A DNA stretch of 64,000 nt. Origin: a bacterium. Lineage in GTDB: Bacteria > CAIWAD01. Shown piece by piece: positions 42,119 to 62,924 of this stretch (position 1 is its first letter; the number at the start of each line of letters is the position of its first letter). The stretch spans positions 28,840-92,839 of the forward strand of contig JAUIFJ010000016.1 in the NCBI GenBank assembly GCA_030429345.1, read 5' to 3'. A program made the translations under genes and the position numbers. The notes beneath the pieces were generated by a model. The model made no database searches. It was not told the origin of the DNA and was given only the letters and a program-made list of their open reading frames with translations.

Positions 42119-44080
42119 CTAGGGGAGTGTCTCCGGATTCAGGTAGTTGCCGCTTGCTCCCTGCGGAGAACCGTTCACACCCGGCCCGCCCGGCGCTAGG
42201 TATGAACCCGGTACGATCGACGAGAAGCTGGAGTAGTAGGAGACGATGAGGTATACGGGACCTCCGCGTCCCGCTCCGCCGTGGCCCCCGTCGCCGCCGT
42301 CCCCGCCATCGCCTCCGCTGCCGCCCATGCCGGCGTCATCCTGCTCGTCTGTTCCGCCGTAGGGCCCGCCGTTTCCGCCGTTGCCGCCGTTGCCGCCGTT
42401 TCCGCCCCAGCCGCGGGATCCGGGGATCAGTGGCGTCTCCGTGTAGCTCCAGGTGTGATCCATCACGATGTTCGAGCAGTAGTACATGTAGAGGGCGAAG
42501 GATCCGCCGGCGCCCTGGCCACCGCCACCGCCGGTACCGCCCTGGCCTCCGCCTCCACCACCGCCGCCGGTGCTACCGTAGCTGTCGCAGCTGGAAGTGC
42601 CGCCACCGCCGCCGCCACCGCCGCCACCGCCGCTTCCGTCCGTGCCGTTCTCTCCCGGCTCTCCCCATGCGGGCGTGTATCCCTGCGCCGAATAGCTGCC
42701 CAGGCCGCCGTGCGCGCCCCAGGCCCCGTTGCTTCCATGTGCTCCATCCATTCCGTTCCCGCCATTGCCTTGCACGGCGCCACCGCTGCCGCCTGCACCG
42801 CCGGCGCCTTGTCCGGAGATTCCCGAAGAGCCGGTTTCCGATCCCAGTCCGGATGCACCGCCGAAACCACCTGGACGGCCGGCAGGACTGGAACCCGGAA
42901 AGCCGCCCGGAGGACCGGGGCAGGAGTCGCAGAAGAAGCCGCCATCCTCGCAGCCGGGGTAACCGCTGCCCGCATGGCCACCGGAGGCCCCGGCGCTTCC
43001 GAGCTGCCCCGATTCGCCTCCGCTGCCGGCATCCGCACTCAGCATACAACGCCGGAAGGTGATGCTGCTGCAGGAATCCATGATCGCGCCATAGCTGCTG
43101 CCCCCCGGCGTCGCGGGAGTCGTGCCCATGAAGGAAATGCCGTCGAAGAGGATGTTGCTGCGATTGTGCATGCGCAGGCCCGCGCTGTCGTCCAGGGGCC
43201 TCACGCGCGTGCGCGCGGCCGGGAAAAGGGTTCGCGAACGGAAGTCTTCCGCGTAGCCGCCGTATACGCTGGAGCCGGAGGGCAATCCGCCCAGGCTTTC
43301 TTCCCACAGCGTGCCGGGAAAGGGCGCGCCGGCCAGGTAGATCGTGTCCAGGCTGTCGTGGTCCACCAGGCGCTGCACGGCCTCGCCAAGGGTCAGGAGA
43401 GGAGCATTCCACAGGCCGCTGCCCGTGTCGTCGCCGTTCGGGTGTACGCAGACCCCGTCCGGCAGGGGGTCCGTATACAGTACCGAGACCGGCAGGGGAT
43501 CGCTGTCCTGGCAGCCGTCGTTGACGATGAGCGTCCACGAGGCCAGGCCTTCTGCCTCCGGGGCGGGAAGCTCCAGCGTGGGGCCGTATACGGTCGGTAG
43601 GCTGGCGTGCTCCCAGCGGTAGGTCAAGGGCGCCTCCTCGGGGTCCGTGCTGGCGGAGGCGTCGAAGAGGACGTCCTGGAAGAAGTCCTGGCTCAGGTCC
43701 GCCGCACCGGTCAGGCCGGCAGTCGGAGCCTCGTCGGCGAGCACGCGGAAGAAATACATGCTGTTCTCGTCAGGATCGAAAAGGTAGTGGGTCCGGCCAT
43801 CCCCGCCGAAGTCCAGGGGTGGATCTTCCAGGAGTGTATACCCGCTCCAGGCCTGGCTTGACTGGTAGACTTCGACACAGGGCCCGGTGCCGGGCCAGTT
43901 CAGGTCCAGCTGCTCCCCGACAACATCGAGCCGCAGATCCGTGATGTTGCTCAGGGTGCCGGTGGAATCATCCATGTCGTCCATCATCGGGCCTGTCTTC
44001 GCGGCCACTGTCCCGCTCAGGGCGATCACACCGGTCAGGGCAAGCGAAACTCCCCTTCTGTACTGCATTCGGTAGTTCAT
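42119..44080 (-). CDS. Secreted glycine-rich repeat protein, paralogue 1
   Basis: A 653-residue exported protein starting at ATG 44080 (AGGAGA upstream), with a signal peptide of about 27 residues. Residues about 40-120 form a fibronectin-like domain (LRLDVVGEQLDLNWPGTGPCVEVY). A PKD/Ig-like segment follows (about 125-200, with WTLIVNDGCQDSDPLP), then a beta-helix-like block (about 205-340, DGVCVHPNGDDTGSG...LTLGEAVQRL). A glycine-rich region (about 345-640) resembles mycobacterial PGRS sequence, with runs of GG-x and cysteine pairs (GCEDGGFFCDSC). Glycine-rich parts probably extend the beta-helix in a polyglycine-like sheet. There is no PNPFN tail. A paralogue lies at 44963-46849, with one small gene between. 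Confidence 0.85.
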   Translation of the reverse strand: MNYRMQYRRGVSLALTGVIALSGTVAAKTGPMMDDMDDSTGTLSNITDLRLDVVGEQLDLNWPGTGPCVEVYQSSQAWSGYTLLEDPPLDFGGDGRTHYLFDPDENSMYFFRVLADEAPTAGLTGAADLSQDFFQDVLFDASASTDPEEAPLTYRWEHASLPTVYGPTLELPAPEAEGLASWTLIVNDGCQDSDPLPVSVLYTDPLPDGVCVHPNGDDTGSGLWNAPLLTLGEAVQRLVDHDSLDTIYLAGAPFPGTLWEESLGGLPSGSSVYGGYAEDFRSRTLFPAARTRVRPLDDSAGLRMHNRSNILFDGISFMGTTPATPGGSSYGAIMDSCSSITFRRCMLSADAGSGGESGQLGSAGASGGHAGSGYPGCEDGGFFCDSCPGPPGGFPGSSPAGRPGGFGGASGLGSETGSSGISGQGAGGAGGSGGAVQGNGGNGMDGAHGSNGAWGAHGGLGSYSAQGYTPAWGEPGENGTDGSGGGGGGGGGGGTSSCDSYGSTGGGGGGGGQGGTGGGGGQGAGGSFALYMYYCSNIVMDHTWSYTETPLIPGSRGWGGNGGNGGNGGNGGPYGGTDEQDDAGMGGSGGDGGDGGDGGHGGAGRGGPVYLIVSYYSSFSSIVPGSYLAPGGPGVNGSPQGASGNYLNPETLP

Positions 44081-44250
44081 GTATTCTCCTCTTGGTTCGT
44101 TCTTTCCAGAAGGGGTCGTATACAGGTCCACGCACGAGGAAAAGCCGGCCCGTACCGTTCTTCACGGACGTTCAGGCCGCAGAGAATGGCGCTGTCCCTG
44201 AGAGTCGACAGTGCATGACTTGTCCTTGCTGCGGAATACGAGCTGTGTGC

Positions 44251-44279
44251 TTGACAGAGATGTCGATGGAGGGTATCAA
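44251..44279 (+). promoter_or_regulatory. Candidate housekeeping promoter of the DUF6265-like gene
   Basis: TTGACA (44251-44256), a 17-base spacer and TATCAA (44274-44279) form a sigma-70-type promoter, about 160 bases before the plus-strand gene at 44440. It is the only such match in a 359-base gap that otherwise holds nothing recognisable. The -10 agrees at four of six positions. Confidence 0.4.
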
Positions 44280-44439
44280 TTGCGCCTGGCCCTGCAAAGT
44301 GAAATCTTTCCGGGATGAAAAGAACCGCATACCTGCCGTCCTGCCGTGGCCTTCGTTCTGATGGAACGGCAGTGCTGATCCTGCAGGCAGCCGCGGAACC
44401 CGGCAGCGCAGGCGAAAAAAAATTACGGGACGTATACCG

Positions 44440-44919
44440 ATGAACCACTGGATGACGGCAATGTTTTGCCTCGTGCTGGCCACGGTATCTCAAGCGGAGG
44501 AGAGGATGGACCTGCAAGACCTGCGCTGGCTCCTGGGCAACTGGGAGCACGAGGGGGCGAAGGCCCTCATCGGAGAGGAGTGGAGCGAGGCCGGCCATAC
44601 GGTCTGGACGGGCCTGGGCCGCCAGACCTCGCGCGAGAGCGGCGATAGCGCGATCAGTGAGGAGCTGCTGCTGGCCGAGCTGGGCGGCGAGGTGTACTAC
44701 ATCGCCAAGGTGGATCACAACTCAATGCCGATTCCCTTCCGGCTCGTGGAACTCGAGGAGAACCGGGCCCGCTTCGAGAACCTGGAGCACGATTTTCCGA
44801 AGCGCATCGAGTACAGGCGGATAACGGAGGATCGCATCGATGTCCGGGTGTCCGACGTAGGGGAGAAGGGCTTCGAGTTGCATTTCACAAGGAAGCCGGG
44901 CAGTCCCCGTTCGAAGTAA
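44440..44919 (+). CDS. Small exported protein of the DUF6265 type
   Basis: A 159-residue protein with a signal peptide (1-19, ending VSQAE). The mature part begins DLRWLLGNWEHEG and contains EEWSEAG, LLLAELGGEVYYIAK, RFENLEHDFPKRIEYRR and a final hydrophobic strand before a basic tail. This is the layout of DUF6265 proteins, small lipocalin-like beta-barrels of unknown role. It lies between the two glycine-rich paralogues but on the opposite strand. The start has no strong ribosome site nearby (GGACG at 44427). Confidence 0.75.
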   Translation: MNHWMTAMFCLVLATVSQAEERMDLQDLRWLLGNWEHEGAKALIGEEWSEAGHTVWTGLGRQTSRESGDSAISEELLLAELGGEVYYIAKVDHNSMPIPFRLVELEENRARFENLEHDFPKRIEYRRITEDRIDVRVSDVGEKGFELHFTRKPGSPRSK

Positions 44920-44962
44920 TCCCCGGTCCTGTCTGGCATTCAGCGCGACAGCCTGGCCCGGA

Positions 44963-46849
44963 TCAGTACCGGAATCCCGACCCGCCCGCCTCGCCCATCG
45001 CGCCGGAGGGATTCGTCCCCGGCGCTCCGCCCGGCGCCGGCAGGCCGCTGTTGCCCAGTGTGTTGATCCGGCAATCGATGTCTACAATGAGGTAGGCGGG
45101 TCCGCCGTTGCCCGGCGCTCCGTGTCCGCCGTTGCCGCCGTTGCCCCCGTCGCCGCCGTGGCCGCCCAATCCGGCGTCGTCCTGGCCGCTGGCTTCCCCG
45201 TATACACCGCCCGGGCCGCCTCTGCCTCCTTCGCCGCCGAGACCGCCTGCACCGCCGTCCCCGCCCGCTCCGCCGGGGCCGGAGAGCAGGGTGCAGAAGC
45301 GCAGGGTCGAGTTCTCGCAGGAATGGAAATAGGCGCTGAAGGCGCCCCCGCCGCTTTGGCCGCCCTGGCCACCGCTTCCTCCGGCACCGCTGCCGCCGCC
45401 GCCGCCGCCGGAACTGCCGTAGCTCGGGCAGCCGCTGACGCCGCCCCCGCCGCCCCCGCCTCCGCTGCCGGGCAAGCCGGGAAGGCCGTCTTCGCCGGAG
45501 ACGGGCCCAGCCGGCAGGAAGGACTCCGCCCAGATCCCGCTGCCCGGTGCGCCTTCGGAACCGTCGGTACCCGCTTCGCCGTCGGCGCCATCCAGGCCGT
45601 TGGCTGCCGTGCCGCCGCCCGTGCCGGATCCGTTCCCCTCGCCGTCCAGGCCAGGGTTCGTGCCCAGGCCGCCATTGCCGCCCGCGCCTCCGGGAAATGC
45701 CCCGGATCCCCCTGCGCCGCCCGCCGGCTGCAGGCAGCTCGCGCAGTCCGTGCTGCCGTTCTCGCAGCCCGGCATGCCGGGCTGTCCGGGTGCGCTCCCG
45801 TTTCCCGCTTCGCCCGCCTGGCCGGATGCGCCGGGCAGGCCGCCCAGGCTCTCCAGCACGCAGAACTGCACCTGGACCCACTCGCAGGCCACGAATTGTG
45901 CTCCATAGCGGCCGAGGCCGTGGGTCTCCGGCTGGAGGCCGTCGCCGACCAGGTGCAGGCCTTCCAGGAAAAGCGAGCTGCGCCCTTCCGCGTATACGGC
46001 CCGACCGCTCTGCAGCGAGCGGACCCTGCTGGGCCAGACCTGCCAGTCGCGCTGGCGGAAGTCGGGGGAGTAGCCGCCCAGCAGGCGGGCGTGATCCACC
46101 AGGACCAGGTCCTCCTGCCACTCGCCCTGGCAGAGGTATACATTCGGCGTCTCTTCCGTGACGCGAGCCAGTGCCTCCCCGATGCTGGCCAGGGGCAGGT
46201 CCCAGGAACCCGGATGCGCGTCGCTTCCGTTCGGTGAGACGCAAACTCCGTCCGGCAGCGGGTCGAGATAGGTCAGCACAAGGGGCAGCGCCTCGCTGTC
46301 CTGGCAGCCGTCGTTGACGGTCAGGGTCCAGTGGGACACGCCGGCTTCCAGCGGTGCTTCAAGCACCAGGGTCGGCCCGAAGCGGAGTTCCCCGTCCGCG
46401 TGTTCCCAGCGGAAGGAGAGCGTCTCGCCTTCGGGATCCCCGTCGGGATCGGCATGGAACACGAGCGGACTGAAGAAGTCCAGCACGGGATGCGTCTCTT
46501 CTGCGACACTGGCCACCGGGGCCAGGTTCTGGCTCACACGGAAATAGCGTTCTTCCTGCCCCCTGGGGCTGTATACGTAGTGCGTGCGCCCCTGGTCCTC
46601 GAAGAGCACGGGATCATTGACGGCGAGGAAGCCTTCCCAGGGTGAAGAGGAGGCGTAGATCGTGACGCAGGGACCGACGGAGGGCCAGTTCAGGTCCAGC
46701 CAGATGCCGAAGGGCTCGATCCGCAAGTCCTGGACTTCCCGCGGGCCGGATCGTCCGTGCTCCGTCGCCAGGGACTGCGCCGGGGAGAATGGGGACAGAA
46801 TGAACAGGCAAAGCACAAGGAATGAACCGCAAGGGGGACTGGCGGACAT
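44963..46849 (-). CDS. Secreted glycine-rich repeat protein, paralogue 2
   Basis: A 628-residue exported protein with a signal peptide of about 28 residues. It has the same domain order as the gene at 42119-44080: a fibronectin-like domain (LRIEPFGIWLDLNWPSVGPCVTIY), a PKD/Ig-like segment (WTLTVNDGCQDSEALP), a DGVCVSPNGSD block leading into a beta-helix, and a long glycine-rich region with GCENGSTDCASC and polyglycine runs. Both end in a GGPAYLIV/GGPVYLIV strand followed by a GAPG/GGPG stretch. Passenger blocks differ more than the framework, which suggests an old duplication. The glycine-rich DNA is highly repetitive and prone to slippage. Confidence 0.85.
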   Translation of the reverse strand: MSASPPCGSFLVLCLFILSPFSPAQSLATEHGRSGPREVQDLRIEPFGIWLDLNWPSVGPCVTIYASSSPWEGFLAVNDPVLFEDQGRTHYVYSPRGQEERYFRVSQNLAPVASVAEETHPVLDFFSPLVFHADPDGDPEGETLSFRWEHADGELRFGPTLVLEAPLEAGVSHWTLTVNDGCQDSEALPLVLTYLDPLPDGVCVSPNGSDAHPGSWDLPLASIGEALARVTEETPNVYLCQGEWQEDLVLVDHARLLGGYSPDFRQRDWQVWPSRVRSLQSGRAVYAEGRSSLFLEGLHLVGDGLQPETHGLGRYGAQFVACEWVQVQFCVLESLGGLPGASGQAGEAGNGSAPGQPGMPGCENGSTDCASCLQPAGGAGGSGAFPGGAGGNGGLGTNPGLDGEGNGSGTGGGTAANGLDGADGEAGTDGSEGAPGSGIWAESFLPAGPVSGEDGLPGLPGSGGGGGGGGVSGCPSYGSSGGGGGGSGAGGSGGQGGQSGGGAFSAYFHSCENSTLRFCTLLSGPGGAGGDGGAGGLGGEGGRGGPGGVYGEASGQDDAGLGGHGGDGGNGGNGGHGAPGNGGPAYLIVDIDCRINTLGNSGLPAPGGAPGTNPSGAMGEAGGSGFRY

Positions 46850-51142: not shown

Positions 51143-51285
51143 GAGGATCCTCTCTATGTTGCCAGAGGATCGTGAATTCTTGCCATGATTGGCAAGTCCA
51201 AAACAACCCCGGAAGATTCCTGTCATCGGGAACCCCGACCTGCCGCAAGCCGTAATCAGTGAATCACTCCCAACCCCGAGGTTCC

Positions 51286-51975
51286 ATGAATCGATCGATC
51301 GCTCTTTCGGGCCTGCTTTCCATCCTGCTTCTCTGTGCCGCAGCCCAGGCCCAGGGAATGGGAAACCGGTTGCTGGCCGACTTCACCGCTCCGGATGACA
51401 GCCTGTCGACTCTTGTCTACAAGATGGACGGCAAGGAGACCCTCAACGACGCCTGCCCGGTGCGCAAGGTGCGCCTCAATCGCAAGATGGGGGCGGCCTA
51501 TGTCAACGACCGCCCCGTCGGCTTCTGCTGACGCCCTTGCGCGAAGGTCTTCGTGCAGCAACCGGATCTGTTTCTGGATCAGCTGGGAATCGAACTTCCC
51601 TGCATCGTCGATGAAAGCCGCATGGCGCAGCTGGATGCGGAGCATCGGGTCTTCATCAACTACGAAGCCTATTACTGTGCGGATGATCGGTCGCGGAAGA
51701 AATTCAGCCGCAAGCCGTGGAAGTACCTCGACGAAGTGACCGACCCGGTGAGCAAGCGTCGCTTTCACCCGGACAAACGTTCGCCGGAGGCTGAGCACGC
51801 AGGCAGGCGCTTTTTCTTCCAGTCGGAAGGGAATCGTGAAGCCTTCCTGGGGATGGCCGACTCCCTGGCTGTTCCCGTCGTTCCGCACGCGGGCATGGCC
51901 TGGTACCAGGCGATCATGGACGAGTTTCTGCCTATGGAGGAGTGCGAAGAGGAAGGGCACTCTTCCATGCACTGA
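51286..51975 (+). CDS. Candidate selenoprotein: exported YHS-like metal-binding protein with in-frame TGA at residue 82
   Basis: From ATG 51286 (GAGG five bases upstream; signal peptide ending AAAQAQ) one frame of 230 codons runs to TAG/TGA at 51975, broken only by TGA at 51529-51531. The context CPVRKV...VGFC[TGA]RPCAKVFVQQPDLF is a YHS/TRASH-type unit. In that family this site reads F-C-C-x-x-C and the TGA replaces the second cysteine. Two further YHS-like units follow (HRVFINYEAYYC...F..KPWKYL and TDPVSKRRF...RFFF). Sequence immediately after TGA folds into a SECIS-like hairpin (separate entry). I therefore read TGA as selenocysteine. The alternatives are a TGC/TGT-to-TGA base error or mutation; with no recoding, only 81 residues would be made. 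Metal or metalloid handling in the periplasm is inference. Selenocysteine genes are not in the window. Confidence 0.6.
51538..51557 (+). promoter_or_regulatory. SECIS-like hairpin directly downstream of the in-frame TGA
   Basis: Bases 51538-51545 (TGCGCGAA) pair with 51550-51557 (TTCGTGCA) over 8 bp with one G-U, closing a GGTC loop at 51546-51549. As RNA the apex reads AGGUCU, the same hexamer found at the tip of the E. coli fdhF SECIS that binds SelB. Fourteen bases separate the TGA from the loop, against 18 in fdhF, so the spacing is short. Confidence 0.55.
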
Positions 51976-52003: not shown

Positions 52004-52041
52004 AGCCCTGCACGCCGACTCAGCGCGTGCGGGGCTTTTTT
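52004..52041 (+). terminator. Intrinsic terminator of the candidate selenoprotein gene
   Basis: AGCCCTGCACGC (52004-52015) pairs with GCGTGCGGGGCT (52025-52036) with one mismatch, followed by a run of six T (52036-52041). It lies 29 bases past the stop codon. Confidence 0.85.
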
Positions 52042-52152: not shown

Positions 52153-54066
52153 TCAGCGCAGCAGCGTCATCGGCCGGACCTGGCGCTTTCCATCGACGAT
52201 GGCCTGCAGGAAAAAACGGCCGGAGGCCCAGCGCCGATCGCCTGCGGGCGCTTCAATCCGGAAGCGGTGTGTACCCCTGTCCAAGGTGCCCGAGTGCAGC
52301 TGGCCAAATTCCTGCCCCAGCAGATTGACAAGCGAGAGCCGGACCTTGGCAGGGTGATCCAGCGCCAGTTCAACCTGGGCGCTGTCGTTGAAGGGGTTGG
52401 GCCAGGGAGTGCCCAGGCGCCAGCCTGAAGGCAGGGCGGAACCCTGCTCTACGGAAGTCGTGCTCCATTCCTCGATGGCGACCACCTCGGGTTCGTTGCC
52501 CTGCGCCTCGTAATACTCAAGGAACTCGACGATGCGCGGCGATTCGAGCGTTCCGAAATAGTCGATCAGCGCCGGCGTGACACTTTGGTAGAGCACCTGC
52601 GCCTCCACACGATCCACGTCTCCGGGCAGGCGATAGTGGATCACATCGGCCCCGGTCCCTTCCTGCGCACCTTCGCGATTGTAGTCCGGATCCTGCAAAG
52701 CGGCTCCGGCGATCACAGTGTGTTCGTAGTCCTCGTGATCGCTGTGAAAGCCGGCGGGCGGCAGGCGGTTGTCCTTGAGGAACTGCGAGGCCCGCAGCAG
52801 GGTGTAGGTCTCCTCGTCGTTCACGTCGCCCATGATGCCCTCGTAGACGGCAACCTGTCCCGGATCGCTGATGCGGTCGTGATGCGGCTCGTGGCCGGGA
52901 TCCAGCCCTGTGATCCGTCCCTCGTCATCCCAGCTGCCTGACTCGAAGACCAGCTCCTCGCCCTGCCAGGCGCGCAGCCGCACCCAGAGGCGGCGCAATG
53001 GAATGCCGGTCGGCAGTTTGTGTCCGCTCAGGTTCCGCAGGTGCAGGTCGAAGGCCACGCTGTCCCCTTCGTCTTCCAGTTCTGCGGTCATCTCCAGCGA
53101 GGACGCCAGCATGGCCCGTGTCCACTGGATGCTGCGGTCGAACTGTTCTTCCGGTGCGGCGACGCCCAGGGCCTCGCCGTGATCCCTCAGCAGTTGCAGC
53201 ATCCAGGCGTTGCCGCCGACGAACTGGTGCACGAAGAAGGGCTCTCGCAGGGTCGTGTCCCAGGGAGGCATTACGGCAATGTCCTGCGGCGACTCGGCCA
53301 GCGGCATGTGGCAGTCCTGGCAATGGATCCCCTGTTCGGAATAGTCGCTGTTGCGCCATTCCAGATAGGGCGTCTGCTCTGGAAACTCGCCGGCGATCTG
53401 CCCTTCGTCGTCCAGGTAGGGCGTGAAGAGCGTGTGACAGGTTGCGCAGAGGGCGCTGTCCCCCATGTGCTCTCCGTGCGCCGGAGTGAAACCGGTCATG
53501 TTCTGCATCGGCATGACCAGGGGATCCTCGTAGGGTCCGTAGATCACGGCCTCGTCTCCGATCACATAGCCTCCGCTCCAGCTCGTCTCCGAGTCGAGAT
53601 TCCCGCTGTCGATCTGGTGACACAAGGTGCAGCTGATGCCGTCTCTGCCGTTCCAGGTGTCGATTGCTCCCTGGAAGGATGTTTCCGGAATCCCGTCGAC
53701 TTCGTCCTGCTCATTGAGCATCGGGGCATGGCAGCGGGTGCAGCGGTCCTCGATCAGGCCTTGCAGCTCAGGATGCGCCTCCACCTCAGCCTCGACCTTG
53801 GCCCGCCAGAGGGGGTCGCGCGAGGAGTTGGCCATCATCGAGGACATCCAGGCTCCGGTGGGGGAGATGTCAATGCCGTTCTCGACCATCTGACTGCCGG
53901 AGGCGGAATGGCAGGTCTGGCAGTTTCCGGAGCCGCTGAAATGACTGCTGGTGGAAGTCGGCAGGGGTACCTGTGCAATGGCAGTACCGGCTGTGAAGAA
54001 GAGTAAGATGGACACGCATGCCGATTTTGACATAAGTTGCCGGAATACACGGATCTGGGACCACAT
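52153..54066 (-). CDS. Secreted pentahaem cytochrome c with type IX sorting tail
   Basis: A 637-residue protein starting at ATG 54066 (GGAG eight bases upstream), with a signal peptide ending TAGTAIA (about residue 30). Five CxxCH haem sites have their histidines at 53, 113, 150, 211 and 253 (CQTCH, CTRCH, CTLCH, CATCH, CQDCH), matching the cytochrome c554/c-prime multihaem family. A beta-rich domain occupies about 300-530. The last 90 residues (WPNPFNDSAQVELAL, LSLVNLLGQEF, RGTHRFRIEA, VRPMTLLR) are a type IX sorting tail. The combination suggests a haem protein displayed outside the cell, with extracellular electron transfer as an inferred role. The gene is bracketed by two 84-bp direct repeats. 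Confidence 0.88.
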   Translation of the reverse strand: MWSQIRVFRQLMSKSACVSILLFFTAGTAIAQVPLPTSTSSHFSGSGNCQTCHSASGSQMVENGIDISPTGAWMSSMMANSSRDPLWRAKVEAEVEAHPELQGLIEDRCTRCHAPMLNEQDEVDGIPETSFQGAIDTWNGRDGISCTLCHQIDSGNLDSETSWSGGYVIGDEAVIYGPYEDPLVMPMQNMTGFTPAHGEHMGDSALCATCHTLFTPYLDDEGQIAGEFPEQTPYLEWRNSDYSEQGIHCQDCHMPLAESPQDIAVMPPWDTTLREPFFVHQFVGGNAWMLQLLRDHGEALGVAAPEEQFDRSIQWTRAMLASSLEMTAELEDEGDSVAFDLHLRNLSGHKLPTGIPLRRLWVRLRAWQGEELVFESGSWDDEGRITGLDPGHEPHHDRISDPGQVAVYEGIMGDVNDEETYTLLRASQFLKDNRLPPAGFHSDHEDYEHTVIAGAALQDPDYNREGAQEGTGADVIHYRLPGDVDRVEAQVLYQSVTPALIDYFGTLESPRIVEFLEYYEAQGNEPEVVAIEEWSTTSVEQGSALPSGWRLGTPWPNPFNDSAQVELALDHPAKVRLSLVNLLGQEFGQLHSGTLDRGTHRFRIEAPAGDRRWASGRFFLQAIVDGKRQVRPMTLLR

Positions 54067-54191
54067 CAAAAATACTCCGGACTTAGTTGATCGACTACAT
54101 CTAGAATATCGGAACGGACCAAGTTCATTTCTATTACACCCAGGCGGAAAATGCCCTTCGGGCGAGTTTCCTTGCCTCCTGACTCCAGGTC

Positions 54192-54275
54192 CGCTGAAAT
54201 TGTCCAGAATTGGGGAATGAGTGTTAGCGCTTTTTGTGGCAATAAAGCTGTGCACTGTGAGTAGGAGCGTGCAGA
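54192..54275 (+). repeat. 84-bp direct repeat, copy 2
   Basis: The second copy of the repeat at 52055-52138, with about eight substitutions, all in its first 50 bases. It lies in the 341-base gap upstream of the cytochrome gene (minus strand) and before the rplM promoter. A promoter role for the cytochrome gene is possible but not shown. Confidence 0.9.
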
Positions 54276-54345
54276 GGCCCCCCACCCCCACCCCATTCTC
54301 CACTCACATCCCTTCCGGATCCCGGGGATGGATTCGCGTCTTTCC

Positions 54346-54407: not shown

Positions 54408-54836
54408 GTGAAAACCTATACGCTCAAAGCCGGCGAGATTGAACGCGACTGGTTTGTGGTCGATGCCGAGGATCAGGTCCTCGGGCGTCTCTGCAGCCGC
54501 ATCGCCCAGGTGCTGCGCGGCAAGCACAAGCCGACTTTTACTCCTCATATGGACAACGGCGACTTTGTCATCGTTCTGAACGCGGACAAGATTCGCCTGA
54601 CCGGGCGCAAGGCCGACACCAAGACCTATTTCCGTCACAGCGGTTACCCCAAGGGTGCCCGTACGACGACTTTCCGCCAGGCCATGGAGAAGGATCCGGC
54701 CTGGGTGATCGAGAACGCGGTCAAGGGCATGCTGCCCCACAACCGCCTGGGTCGCCAGATTCTGAAGAAGCTCAAAGTGTATTCTGGCAGCGAGCATCCC
54801 CACGATGCCCAGCAGCCCAAGGAACTGCAATTCTAG
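54408..54836 (+). CDS. rplM: Ribosomal protein uL13
   Basis: A 142-residue 50S subunit protein of normal length for bacteria. Diagnostic segments are [57 protein letters not shown] and [14 protein letters not shown]. It binds 23S rRNA early in assembly. The start is a GTG with AAAGGA ten bases upstream. It is followed by rpsI after ten bases, the standard bacterial pair and a sign of a functional ribosomal operon. Confidence 0.98.
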
Positions 54837-54846
54837 GATCCCCGTC

Positions 54847-55242
54847 ATGAAGAATTCCAAGCGCATCTATGCCACCGGACGCCGCAAACGTTCCATTGCC
54901 CGTGTCTGGGCCGAGCCCGGAACCGGCAAGGTGGTCGTCAACGGGGAAGACCTGCTGAGCTATTTCAAGCGCGATACCCTGCGCATGGTCATCGAGCAGC
55001 CTGTCGACCAGTGCGGCATGCTGGACAAGATGGATGTCTACGCCACGGTCAACGGCGGTGGCCTGACAGGCCAGGCCGGCGCCCTGCGCCTCGGCATCAG
55101 CCGCTGCATGGTCGCCATGGACGAAAGCCTGCGCCCGACCTTGCGCGCCGGCGGCTTCCTGACGCGTGACGCCCGTATCGTCGAGCGCAAGAAGTACGGA
55201 CAGCCGGGCGCCCGCAAACGCTTCCAGTTCTCCAAGCGTTAA
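54847..55242 (+). CDS. rpsI: Ribosomal protein uS9
   Basis: A 131-residue 30S protein. KRIYATGRRKRSIARVWAEPG at the start, then VYATVNGGGLTGQAGALRLGISR in the middle and the basic C-terminus KKYGQPGARKRFQFSKR are diagnostic. The final Lys-Arg tail reaches the P-site tRNA. ATG 54847 is used; a longer frame from 54805 only extends into rplM. A terminator follows at 55376. Confidence 0.98.
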   Translation: MKNSKRIYATGRRKRSIARVWAEPGTGKVVVNGEDLLSYFKRDTLRMVIEQPVDQCGMLDKMDVYATVNGGGLTGQAGALRLGISRCMVAMDESLRPTLRAGGFLTRDARIVERKKYGQPGARKRFQFSKR

Positions 55243-55569
55243 TCCGGGGCCCTTTGGTGCCCTGGCGTCGTTGGCCTTCAGTTGCGCACACTAGTGCGCG
55301 CCTTCAGGCCGCCTAGCCAGAACACCAAATGACCACCGGCTTAATCGCTTGGTGGTTAAATGGAATGGACAAGTCGGCTGCCGCTATTGCGGCAGCCTTT
55401 TTCACGACTGATGCCGGGGTTTGCCGGTGTCATGTAAAGCACGTTTCCGGACTGTGATGCGGGTGGCCTTTCGGGGTCTGTGTCACGGGGTGAAGGAAGC
55501 GGAAGATCAACCCGGTCCGATTTCCCCCTCCAGTATTCGAATAGGGGCGGACCATAGCCGGAGGACGCC
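55243..55569. other. 327-base gap between rpsI and rpsB
   Basis: It holds the rpsI terminator and, presumably, the rpsB promoter and leader. I see no convincing S2-binding leader structure or clear -35/-10 pair, and no gene. Confidence 0.5.
55376..55402 (+). terminator. Intrinsic terminator of rplM-rpsI
   Basis: A perfect 9-bp stem (55376-55384 with 55389-55397, loop TATT) is followed by TTTTT. Confidence 0.9.
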
Positions 55570-56463
55570 ATGTCCCGCATTACCATCAAGCAGCTCCTGC
55601 TCGCCGGTGCCCACTTCGGTCACCTGACCCGCCGTTGGAACCCCAAGATGCGCCCCTACATCTTCATGCAGAAGAACGGCGTGCACATCATGGACCTCAA
55701 GAAGAGCCAGATCCTGCTCGACGAGGCTGCCAACAAGCTCGGCGCGATTGTCCAGAAGGGCGGAGACGTGCTTTTCGTCGGCACCAAGGACCAGGCCCGC
55801 GATGTGATCAAGGAAGAAGCCGAGCGCTGCTCAATGTTCTTCGTCAACAACCGCTGGCTGGGCGGCATGCTGACCAACTTCCGCACCATCCGCAATTCGA
55901 TCCGCACCCTGGAGGTGCTCGAGTCCAAGGAAAAGGACGGCACCTACGAGCGCCTGCGCAAGAAGGAGATCCTCTCCATCGAGCGCCAGAAGGAGAAGCT
56001 GACGGCGGTGCTGGGCGGTATCCGCAACATGAAGCGCCTGCCCCAGGCGGTTTTCGTGGTCGACACGATCAAGGAAGACATCGCCATCAAGGAGGCCCGC
56101 AAGCTGGGCATCACGGTCTTCGGCATTTGTGATACGAATTCAGATCCCGGCGTCGTGGACTATGTCATTCCGGCCAACGACGACGCATACAAGTCCATCG
56201 CCATCATCACCAAGGTGCTGGCCGACGCGGTCGAGGAAGCCCGCATGCTCCGCAAGGACGGCTTCGGCGCCGAGGGCGAGCAGGAAGCTCCCGGAGGCGA
56301 AGACCGCAAGCCTGCTCCCCGTCGTCGCCGCAAGCGTGAAGGGGGAACCGGTGGCGGCGCTGCTGCCGGCGGTGTGAAGGTGGCCAAGGCAAGCGAGAAG
56401 CCTGCCGCGGAAAAGGACGCCCCCGCCGAGAAGGCCGACGAGAAGAAAAACGCTTCGGAATAG
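55570..56463 (+). CDS. rpsB: Ribosomal protein uS2 with long C-terminal extension
   Basis: A 297-residue 30S protein. The S2 core (1 to about 230) is ordinary: ITIKQLLLAGAHFGHLTRRWNPKM, FVNNRWLGGMLTNF, FVVDTIKEDIAIKEARKLGI and ANDDAYKSIAIITKVLADA. About 65 further residues form a charged, glycine/alanine/lysine-rich tail (RRRRKREGGTGG...) with no fold, as in some other FCB bacteria. The start has CCGGAGGA upstream. It heads the conserved rpsB-tsf-pyrH-frr order. Confidence 0.97.
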   Translation: MSRITIKQLLLAGAHFGHLTRRWNPKMRPYIFMQKNGVHIMDLKKSQILLDEAANKLGAIVQKGGDVLFVGTKDQARDVIKEEAERCSMFFVNNRWLGGMLTNFRTIRNSIRTLEVLESKEKDGTYERLRKKEILSIERQKEKLTAVLGGIRNMKRLPQAVFVVDTIKEDIAIKEARKLGITVFGICDTNSDPGVVDYVIPANDDAYKSIAIITKVLADAVEEARMLRKDGFGAEGEQEAPGGEDRKPAPRRRRKREGGTGGGAAAGGVKVAKASEKPAAEKDAPAEKADEKKNASE

Positions 56464-56542
56464 AATGAGGGCCGGACCCCGTCGGTCCGCGCCTTCATCG
56501 CCAGATTGTCCCACAGGGAAACGACCCTAAAGGAGCACGACC

Positions 56543-57406
56543 ATGTCCATATCCGCCAAGGAAGTCATGAAGCTGCGCCAGGCTACCGGCGCCGGCATGA
56601 TGGATTGCAAGAAAGCCCTCCAGGAAAGCGGCGGCGACTATGATGCCGCGATGGATTACCTGCGCAAGAAGGGCCTAAAGACCGCCGAAAAGCGCGCCGG
56701 CCGCGATGCCAACGAAGGCAAGGTCGTTGCCGTGATCGCCGATGACGGCCGCAGCGGCGTGCTGCTCGAGCTGAATTCGGAGACCGATTTCGTCGCCGGC
56801 ACGGATGATTTCAAGACCTTCGCCCAGGATTGCGCCAAGGCCGCCCTGGCCAAGGATCCCGCCGACGCCGAGGCCCTGCTGGCCCTCGACGGCCTCAACG
56901 ATCGCCTGAACGAGATGACCGGCAAGCTGGGCGAGAAGATCGGCATTCGCCGTTTCTCCCGCGTGGCGCTGCCCGAAGGCACCGCCGGTCGCGTCCACAG
57001 CTATATCCATCTGGGCGACAAGCACGGCGTCCTGGTGCATGTGACCTGCGACAAGGCCGAGTCCGCCGCCAGCGAAGAGCTGCAGACCCTGGTTAATGAC
57101 ATCTGCCTGCAGATCGTCGCCTACCAGCCCCAGGCGCTGGGCCGCGACGACATGGACGCCTCTGTCATCGAGAAGGAGCGCGAGGTCTACCGCGACATCG
57201 CCCGCAACGAGGGCAAGCCCGAGCAGATCATCGACAAGATCGCCGAAGGCAAGCTCAACAAGTTCTTCGCCGAGACGACCCTGCTCGAGCAGGCCTTCGT
57301 CAAGGAGGACAAGCAAAGCGTGCAACAGCATGTGAACAGCGTCGCCAAGGGGCTTGGCGACAAGATTACCGTTGGCGGGTTCGAGAACTTCGTCATCGGA
57401 GCCTAG
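56543..57406 (+). CDS. tsf: Elongation factor Ts
   Basis: A 287-residue nucleotide-exchange factor for EF-Tu. It starts with an AAGGAG ribosome site. The UBA-like N-terminus [24 protein letters not shown] is followed by the signature [10 protein letters not shown] (about 73-82) and a coiled core. The length fits the family. It lies 79 bases after rpsB. Confidence 0.98.
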
Positions 57407-57416
57407 ATCATTCAAG

Positions 57417-57445
57417 CCGCCCGCGTTGATCGCGGGCGGTTCTCT
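57417..57445 (+). terminator. Hairpin between tsf and pyrH, possible terminator or attenuator
   Basis: A perfect 9-bp GC stem (57417-57425 with 57431-57439, loop TTGAT) is followed by TTCTCT. It lies eleven bases after the tsf stop and just ahead of pyrH, so it could partly separate ribosomal from later gene expression. Confidence 0.6.
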
Positions 57446-57461
57446 ATTCAGGCGGGTTGTC

Positions 57462-58187
57462 ATGGGCCAGTTTCAGTACAAGCGCATTCTGCTCAAGCTT
57501 TCCGGCGAGGCTCTTGCCGGCGACCAGGGCTTCGGCCTGGATTCGCAGACCCTCTTCCGCTACGCCCAGGAGATCCACCATCTGGCGCAGAGCGGCCTCC
57601 AGGTGGGCCTGGTCATTGGCGGGGGAAACTTCTTCCGCGGCATTTCCGACAGCGCCGACGCCATGGAGATCGACCGCTCGACGGGCGATTACATTGGCAT
57701 GCTGGCAACAGTGATGAACTGCATGGCCATGCAGAAGGCCATCGAGAAGCAGGGCTCGCAGACCCGCGTGCTCAGCGCCCTGACCATTCGCGAATGCGCC
57801 GAACCCTACATCGTGCGCCGAGCGATCCGTCACCTGGAGAAGGGCCGGGTGGTGATTTTCGCCGCCGGCACGGGCAATCCCTACTTCTCGACCGACACGG
57901 CCGCCGCCCTGCGAGCCAACGAGATCGGGGCCCAGGTCCTGTTGAAGGGAACCAAGGTCGACGGCGTCTACGACAAGGATCCCGTGAAGCACCCCGAAGC
58001 GGAATTTTTCACCGAATTGACATACCTTGAGGTTCTGTCCCGGCAGCTCAAGGTCATGGATTCCACGGCCGTCTCCCTGTGCATGGATAATGGAGTGCCG
58101 CTGCTGGTCTTCAACATGACGATTGCCGGAAACCTTCAGCGAGTGCTCAAGGGAGAGGGCCGCTTCACGATGATCCGGGGAGAGTAG
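57462..58187 (+). CDS. pyrH: Uridylate kinase
   Basis: A 241-residue hexameric UMP kinase. It has [14 protein letters not shown] (N-terminal), [54 protein letters not shown] and [18 protein letters not shown] 57462 begins the homology; a longer upstream frame reads into the hairpin and tsf. It makes UDP for RNA and cell-wall precursor synthesis. Its stop is one base before the frr start. Confidence 0.97.
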
Positions 58188-58188
58188 A

Positions 58189-58746
58189 ATGATCGACGAG
58201 ATCCTGTCCAAGGCCCAGCATCACATGGACCGCAGCCTTGAAGCGCTGCTGGAGAACTTCGGCACCGTCCGCGCCGGACGCGCCACGACCTCCATCCTGG
58301 ATACGGTAAAAGTCGACTACTATGGAACACCGACTCCCATTTCGCAGGTAGCAAACCTGAGCGTGCCGGAACCGCGCATGATCCTGGTGCAGCCCTGGGA
58401 AAAGAAGATGCTCGACGCCATCCAGAAGGCGATCATGACCAGCGACCTGGGATTGAATCCGGGAAATGACGGCAGCGTGGTCCGCGTGCCCCTTCCCGAA
58501 CTGACGGAAGAACGGCGCAAGGACCTGGTCAAGCAGGTGCACAAGCTGGCCGAGGACGGCAAGATCGCCCTGCGCAATGTGCGCCGCGACGCCAACGACC
58601 ACCTGAAGAAGGCGCTCAAGGCGGGCGAGATCTCCGAGGACGACGAGAGGCGCGCGCTGAAGGAGATCCAGGACCTGACCGACGAGCACGTGAAGAAGAT
58701 CGACGAGCTGCTGAAGCACAAGGAAGAGGACATCCTCGCCATCTAG
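58189..58746 (+). CDS. frr: Ribosome recycling factor
   Basis: A 185-residue factor of standard length with L-shaped helix-bundle features. It has AGRATTSILDTVKVDYYGTPTPISQVANLSVPEPRMILVQPWEK, then PLPELTEERRKDLVKQVHKLAEDGKIALRNVRRDAND. It works with EF-G to release post-termination ribosomes. It starts one base after pyrH. Confidence 0.98.
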   Translation: MIDEILSKAQHHMDRSLEALLENFGTVRAGRATTSILDTVKVDYYGTPTPISQVANLSVPEPRMILVQPWEKKMLDAIQKAIMTSDLGLNPGNDGSVVRVPLPELTEERRKDLVKQVHKLAEDGKIALRNVRRDANDHLKKALKAGEISEDDERRALKEIQDLTDEHVKKIDELLKHKEEDILAI

Positions 58747-58884
58747 GATCCTGTCCGACCCCGGCTTTCGCCGCAGCCGCTTCCTACGGGAACTCCAGCG
58801 GGAGGTTCACTGGCCCAACAGGGCGTATACGTGATTCTCCCGCTTCTTGCATCCGGACGCGCGCCGCGCCTCCAGGGAGACCAT

Positions 58885-62924
<4,040 letters not shown>

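Follow-up and report, generated by a model that had tools for sequence, protein, structure and literature searches.

Evidence for a selenoprotein family of three YHS/TRASH-type units with a conserved in-frame UGA in little-studied bacterial phyla

The gene at 51286-51975 and its surroundings

The window, a 64,000-nucleotide stretch of one contig of a bacterial genome, includes a forward-strand reading frame (51286-51975) whose sole internal interruption is a TGA at 51529-51531 (residue 82), and which ends at a TGA of its own (51973-51975). Reading through the whole frame thus recovers the single in-frame TGA that the original prediction had described, and the start and end signals it had assigned to the gene are also in place: a GAGG ahead of the start codon, a signal peptide recognized by eye, and a hairpin followed by six T residues (Table 1). 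In several homologues, judging by their N-termini, a lipoprotein-type signal replaces the signal peptide.

Table 1. Features of the candidate selenoprotein gene, in window coordinates
Feature	Coordinates	Strand	Basis and remarks
Selenoprotein gene (predicted)	51286..51975	+	229 aa with Sec82, stop TGA; homologues full-length on either side of the TGA
Shine-Dalgarno-like GAGG	51278..51281	+	4 nt before ATG; from sequence
Signal peptide MNRSIALSGLLSILLLCAAAQAQ	51286..51354	+	By eye; helix 5-23 in AlphaFold model
YHS/TRASH unit 1	51415..51585	+	Cys57 (51454), Cys81 (51526), Sec82 (51529), Cys85 (51538); alignments and model
In-frame TGA, probably read as selenocysteine	51529..51531	+	TGA kept in 22/23 family members
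Alternative hairpin TGCGCGAA-GGTC-TTCGTGCA, possible relocated SECIS	51538..51557	+	Folding; no covariation
Site of the putative family SECIS hairpin (6 bp, loop CGTGC)	51546..51562	+	Covariation; synonymous-codon null
YHS-like unit 2, without metal cysteines	51586..51735	+	Model; alignment
YHS unit 3 (TDPVS...FFF), without metal cysteines	51736..51885	+	Pfam YHS residues 151-188; model; weak TRASH-type structural matches
Intrinsic terminator, hairpin and T6	52004..52041	+	Folding: -25.6 kcal/mol, z -5.2

The predicted product is a secreted protein with three YHS/TRASH-type units, the first of which contains the TGA codon in the motif GFC-U-RPC. That two further YHS-like units follow the TGA, as originally proposed, is borne out by a match to Pfam YHS (PF04945) at residues 151-188, in unit 3, which stays below the gathering score of 30.3 (24.2 bits, E 3.3e-5), and by an AlphaFold model built from 18 family sequences (mean pLDDT 87), which shows three strand-strand-helix units. 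PF04945 does not recognize unit 1 of the window protein when this is searched alone; the profile matched all five family members tested (best E 2.5e-8), and its metal-site pattern C...C-x3-C is present in unit 1, where C57, C81 and C85 are invariant. Structural comparison of the model by Foldseek returned nothing at E <= 0.001, and the best VIA-align score (Z 4.6), to YHS/TRASH-type regions, is too weak to rely on; the weak structural matches include the YHS/TRASH regions of toluene monooxygenase and eL24. A sequence search of the PDB with the protein gave only chance matches, to a receptor.

Adjoining the gene on the opposite strand (52153-54303, -) is a gene whose product resembles an exported cytochrome, with several CxxCH motifs and, at its C-terminus, a domain of the sorting type. 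The window also holds a translation and ribosomal cluster (54408-60678, +; by eye rplM, rpsI, rpsB, tsf, pyrH, frr and lepA). Elsewhere in the window, two adjacent secreted proteins (42119-46849, -) that resemble each other and contain long Gly-rich stretches have the look of a tandem duplication. Comparison of gene neighbourhoods across the family identified no conserved partner and none pointing to a function; the ORFs common to these neighbourhoods (by eye) encode C-terminal sorting domains or a carbohydrate-binding domain, or are overlapping frames.

Conservation of the TGA and the selenocysteine machinery

Neither an exact-peptide scan based solely on the window protein nor a first search of 98 genomes (E 0.001) identified any kin, and tblastn in plasmids returned generic YHS domains only. 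Relatives were recovered with the stretch covering units 1-2, which gave four strong homologues in a search of 386 genomes, and then by alignment. Each of these four has one TGA in an otherwise open frame, at the identical codon in all of them. A pattern scan of one genome per species (84,980 species), with peptide patterns that omit the Sec codon and are thus blind to Sec versus Cys, found 16 relatives; in 15 of them the codon is TGA, and in L066 (GFCCEGC) it encodes Cys. Profile searches within three phyla contributed a further five members, every one with TGA.

Altogether we found 22 distinct homologues in metagenome-assembled genomes (MAGs) of several phyla, of which 21 have the TGA at precisely the same codon (GFCUx[P/S]C) and the remaining one has Cys. 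Including the window and with duplicates removed, the family tally is 22 TGA to 1 Cys. The homologues share 31-53% identity with the window protein, a value that varies with the stretch aligned. Taxonomic labels on MAGs are not all reliable; those of the present records read Krumholzibacteriota, Eisenbacteria, Gemmatimonadota, Zixibacteria, Acidobacteria, Planctomycetota and Proteobacteria. Invariant across 18 aligned rows are C57, Y72-V73-N74, P77, G79-F80-C81-(U/C)82 and C85; in the remaining five members C57, C81, U82 and C85 agree by eye. For the close pair L056/L057, dN/dS is 0.14 before the TGA and 0.11 after it, so that purifying selection acts on both parts and the downstream part is under the same constraint as the upstream part.

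The window genome (4.24 Mb, 98% complete) encodes everything that we looked for in the way of selenocysteine machinery. We identified selA (E 1e-149), selB (E 2e-91), which lies on the same contig as the gene, selC as a tRNA-Sec scoring 54 bits above the cut-off (ARAGORN anticodon TCA), and selD (E 6e-102). The selD gene (L018, 2388, - strand) has one in-frame TGA and is itself a selenoprotein gene, with a hairpin CAGTCC-GGTC-GGACTG whose loop lies 17 nt after the UGA.

All 22 genomes carrying the TGA have selA or selD above the cut-off (G402 was counted as the genome of L057, since both loci look alike). selA is present in 15 of the 17 TGA genomes tested. selD exceeds the cut-off in 20 of 22, and 19 of those 20 have a TGA within selD; the two genomes without selD above the cut-off, G391 and G401, both have selA. 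By comparison, Sec users make up about 21.5% of sequenced bacteria (PMC5029168). In G240/G393 (C12:38616-39982) selA is split into two overlapping frames (1-313 and 306-453), likely a frameshift or an assembly error.

The genome of the Cys homologue L066 (G399) lacks selA, from which a loss of Sec use could be read; this reading is overturned by a truncated selD fragment with TGA at a contig edge. Because the genome keeps this TGA-bearing fragment, L066 suggests replacement of Sec by Cys within a Sec-using lineage. A Sec/Cys pair is thus found at the TGA site, with Cys both in L066 and in the FCC of the wider Cys-type YHS units.

We regard it as most improbable that the TGA is a nonsense mutation, an assembly error or part of a wider stop reassignment. 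Nothing was found in favour of any of these, and the same TGA occurs in 22 distinct sequences from distant organisms, nearly all in separate assemblies, alongside the full Sec machinery. Nor can TGA simply be a sense codon, because the gene itself ends in TGA.

Hairpins downstream of the TGA

Applied to 22 sequences, RNAalifold proposed, unprompted, a 6-bp stem with a CGUG[C/A] loop 20 nt past the UGA. Pairing is kept in 98.5% of the cells of this hairpin, and both sides have changed at four of the six pairs. There are 18 cells changed on both sides, a number reached in none of 500 shuffles. Six of six pairs form in 21 of the 22 TGA members, against 3.8 of 22 expected under synonymous recoding, a comparison that takes the sequences as independent despite their shared ancestry. 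For the valine encoded within the loop, 21/21 members use GTG (the 22nd has Gly), compared with 157/353 (44%) elsewhere in these genes. In the Cys member L066, the loop is CTTGA, so that the loop GU is lost, and four of six pairs remain. Over the family, the folding energy of the region downstream of the TGA is not low beyond synonymous recodings (Stouffer -1.6); the evidence for the hairpin is pairing at a fixed position together with covariation, rather than raw energy.

Bacterial SECIS elements are modelled at 16-37 nt from the UGA, some elements being noted as not fitting (PMC13188914). Under criteria of a 3-9 nt loop, 4-16 bp, a G in the first two loop bases and an MFE of at most -7.5, the family hairpin conforms in its loop and stem, in the G and, at 20 nt, in its spacing, while its 6-bp core alone can be less stable than -7.5 (L056, -5.3). 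Rfam returned chance matches only over the gene.

The window gene is the sole TGA member whose conserved stem is disrupted (4/6 pairs, -0.4 kcal/mol), two pairs being lost because the protein has Gln-Gln where its kin mostly have Gln-Asp or Gln-Gly. The original prediction had placed a SECIS-like hairpin directly after the TGA, and the 8-bp GGTC-loop hairpin does exist (-10.5 kcal/mol; as good in 1 of 200 shuffles), although it does not stand out when compared with synonymous recodings of a wider region (fraction 0.20). It is not, however, the SECIS of the family: it does not covary among the homologues, within the family it pairs at 8/8 positions in the window and L058 only, and at 14 nt from the UGA it agrees with all of the SECIS criteria except spacing. 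The apical loop of the covarying family hairpin lies 6 nt further 3'.

In the window lineage, then, either the SECIS has shifted or Sec insertion has weakened. A rival reading, in which the SECIS has decayed in the window genome alone and its gene yields mainly an 81-residue truncated product in a family otherwise made of selenoproteins, would account for a broken stem unique among 22 members, for the distance of the replacement hairpin from the UGA, and for a window branch longer than that of its nearest kin. We nevertheless consider it unlikely: the codons after the TGA are open and keep the conserved residues of the family, the signals at both ends of the gene are intact, and the replacement hairpin is stable, with the same GGUC loop as the selD hairpin of this genome.

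Taken together, the conserved TGA, the Sec/Cys pair, the family hairpin and the Sec machinery imply, by sequence comparison, that UGA codon 82 of this gene is recoded as selenocysteine, to which we assign a probability of roughly 0.9. Its decoding would involve SelB and tRNA-Sec, with a hairpin shortly after the codon as the guiding element. The homologue and sel-gene results therefore argue strongly for the predicted selenoprotein, in which Sec takes the place of a YHS cysteine; at this position, the relatives carry either TGA or Cys.

Relation to known YHS proteins and a possible role at a metal site

Contrary to the earlier supposition that no YHS-domain selenoprotein had been described, one is catalogued. 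A 'YHS domain protein (OS)' was first listed in PMC2398784, and a 2026 review of 119 prokaryotic selenoprotein families and subfamilies contains a single YHS entry, NF041384 (YHS_seleno_dom), with the motif GxU (PMC13188914). Like the family described here, it is a bacterial selenoprotein with a YHS domain; it represents another subfamily, apparently with another Sec site. The two are set apart by the catalogue motif, GxU as against GFCUxPC ahead of two further YHS units, and by model score: the curated cut-off is 70 bits, whereas the best family member reaches 25.2, its match lying in unit 3 and, weakly, in unit 2, and the NF041384 model matches neither the window protein (E up to 10) nor the Sec-bearing unit 1 alone.

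Known counterparts of unit 1 are Cys-type YHS/TRASH proteins (CPV...FCCxxC) of other genomes, which align with C57, C81 and C85 invariant and with U82 opposite the second Cys of their FCC. The placement of the TGA at the second Cys of F-C-C-x-x-C is thereby upheld. These proteins have Cys and no TGA, and those compared do not have the three-unit layout. Vicinal Cys-Sec also occurs in the CU-motif selenoproteins SaoC, SaoL, HgcA, MbdU and the CopZ-like Csac_0668, several of which are linked to heavy metals (PMC13188914); the NCBIfam models available for them do not match the GFCUxPC family. A literature text search for selenoproteins together with Krumholzibacteriota and Eisenbacteria, limited in coverage, found no paper. 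By these sequence and catalogue comparisons, the triple-YHS GFCUxPC proteins apparently form a new selenoprotein family or subfamily, present in none of the catalogues compared.

YHS/TRASH domains bind metal through an ordered set of ligands, a D or C followed by a C and then by C-x3-C (PMC4626032). The same domain class, with ligands D/C-x2-C...C-x3-C, includes the YHS copper sensor of the Mycobacterium phlei adenylyl cyclase (PMC4626032) and the ribosomal protein L24e, which are different proteins without Sec; the metal site in our family is predicted. By analogy, the ligand positions here would be residue 54, C57, C81 and C85, with Sec82 as an extra residue beside C81. The description of Sec as standing at a metal-binding cysteine is accordingly uncertain: the residue is at a YHS cysteine, but that cysteine does not fall among the ligands mapped by analogy.

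Cys57, Cys81 and Cys85 of unit 1 would thus make up a predicted soft-metal site, with Sec82, within C81-U82-x-P-C85, as its neighbour. There Sec82 may supply a further selenolate that ligates a soft metal or metalloid (of the Cu, Hg, Cd class) with high affinity, or it may pair with a cysteine (C81-U82 or U82xxC85) in a redox couple by which the metal is loaded and released outside the cytoplasm. We infer the metal binding, the redox role and the location alike, the role from the domain class, because no neighbouring gene is conserved. On this analogy we somewhat favour extracytoplasmic binding of a soft metal or metalloid, in which Sec would serve either as a ligand or as a redox switch.

A competing possibility, which we hold with less confidence, is that Sec82 works in redox catalysis (through U-x-x-C or a vicinal C-U selenenylsulfide) on a YHS fold that serves as a mere scaffold and normally binds no metal. 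Among the redox motifs typical of selenoproteins are UxxC and CxxU (PMC13188914), and mapping the YHS/TRASH ligands to C57, C81 and C85 leaves the Sec over (PMC4626032). However, the upstream TRASH ligand Cys57 is invariant in 23/23 members, as a metal site predicts, and no reductase partner adjoins the gene. For the soft-metal site in its full setting, that is, an uncatalogued triple-YHS GFCUxPC family, 22:1 in favour of Sec and spread over several poorly studied phyla, with Sec at an extracytoplasmic soft-metal site and with a recoding hairpin that in the window lineage has shifted to an overlapping stem-loop, we see about even odds.

The selenoprotein catalogue would gain a well-supported family of exported proteins from little-studied phyla, with Sec beside a predicted soft-metal site, whose genes annotation pipelines ignorant of the family would cut at the TGA. 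The putatively shifted hairpin of the window offers a test of how far SelB tolerates a change in SECIS position, and the 22-to-1 comparison of Sec with Cys asks what selenium buys at a metal site.
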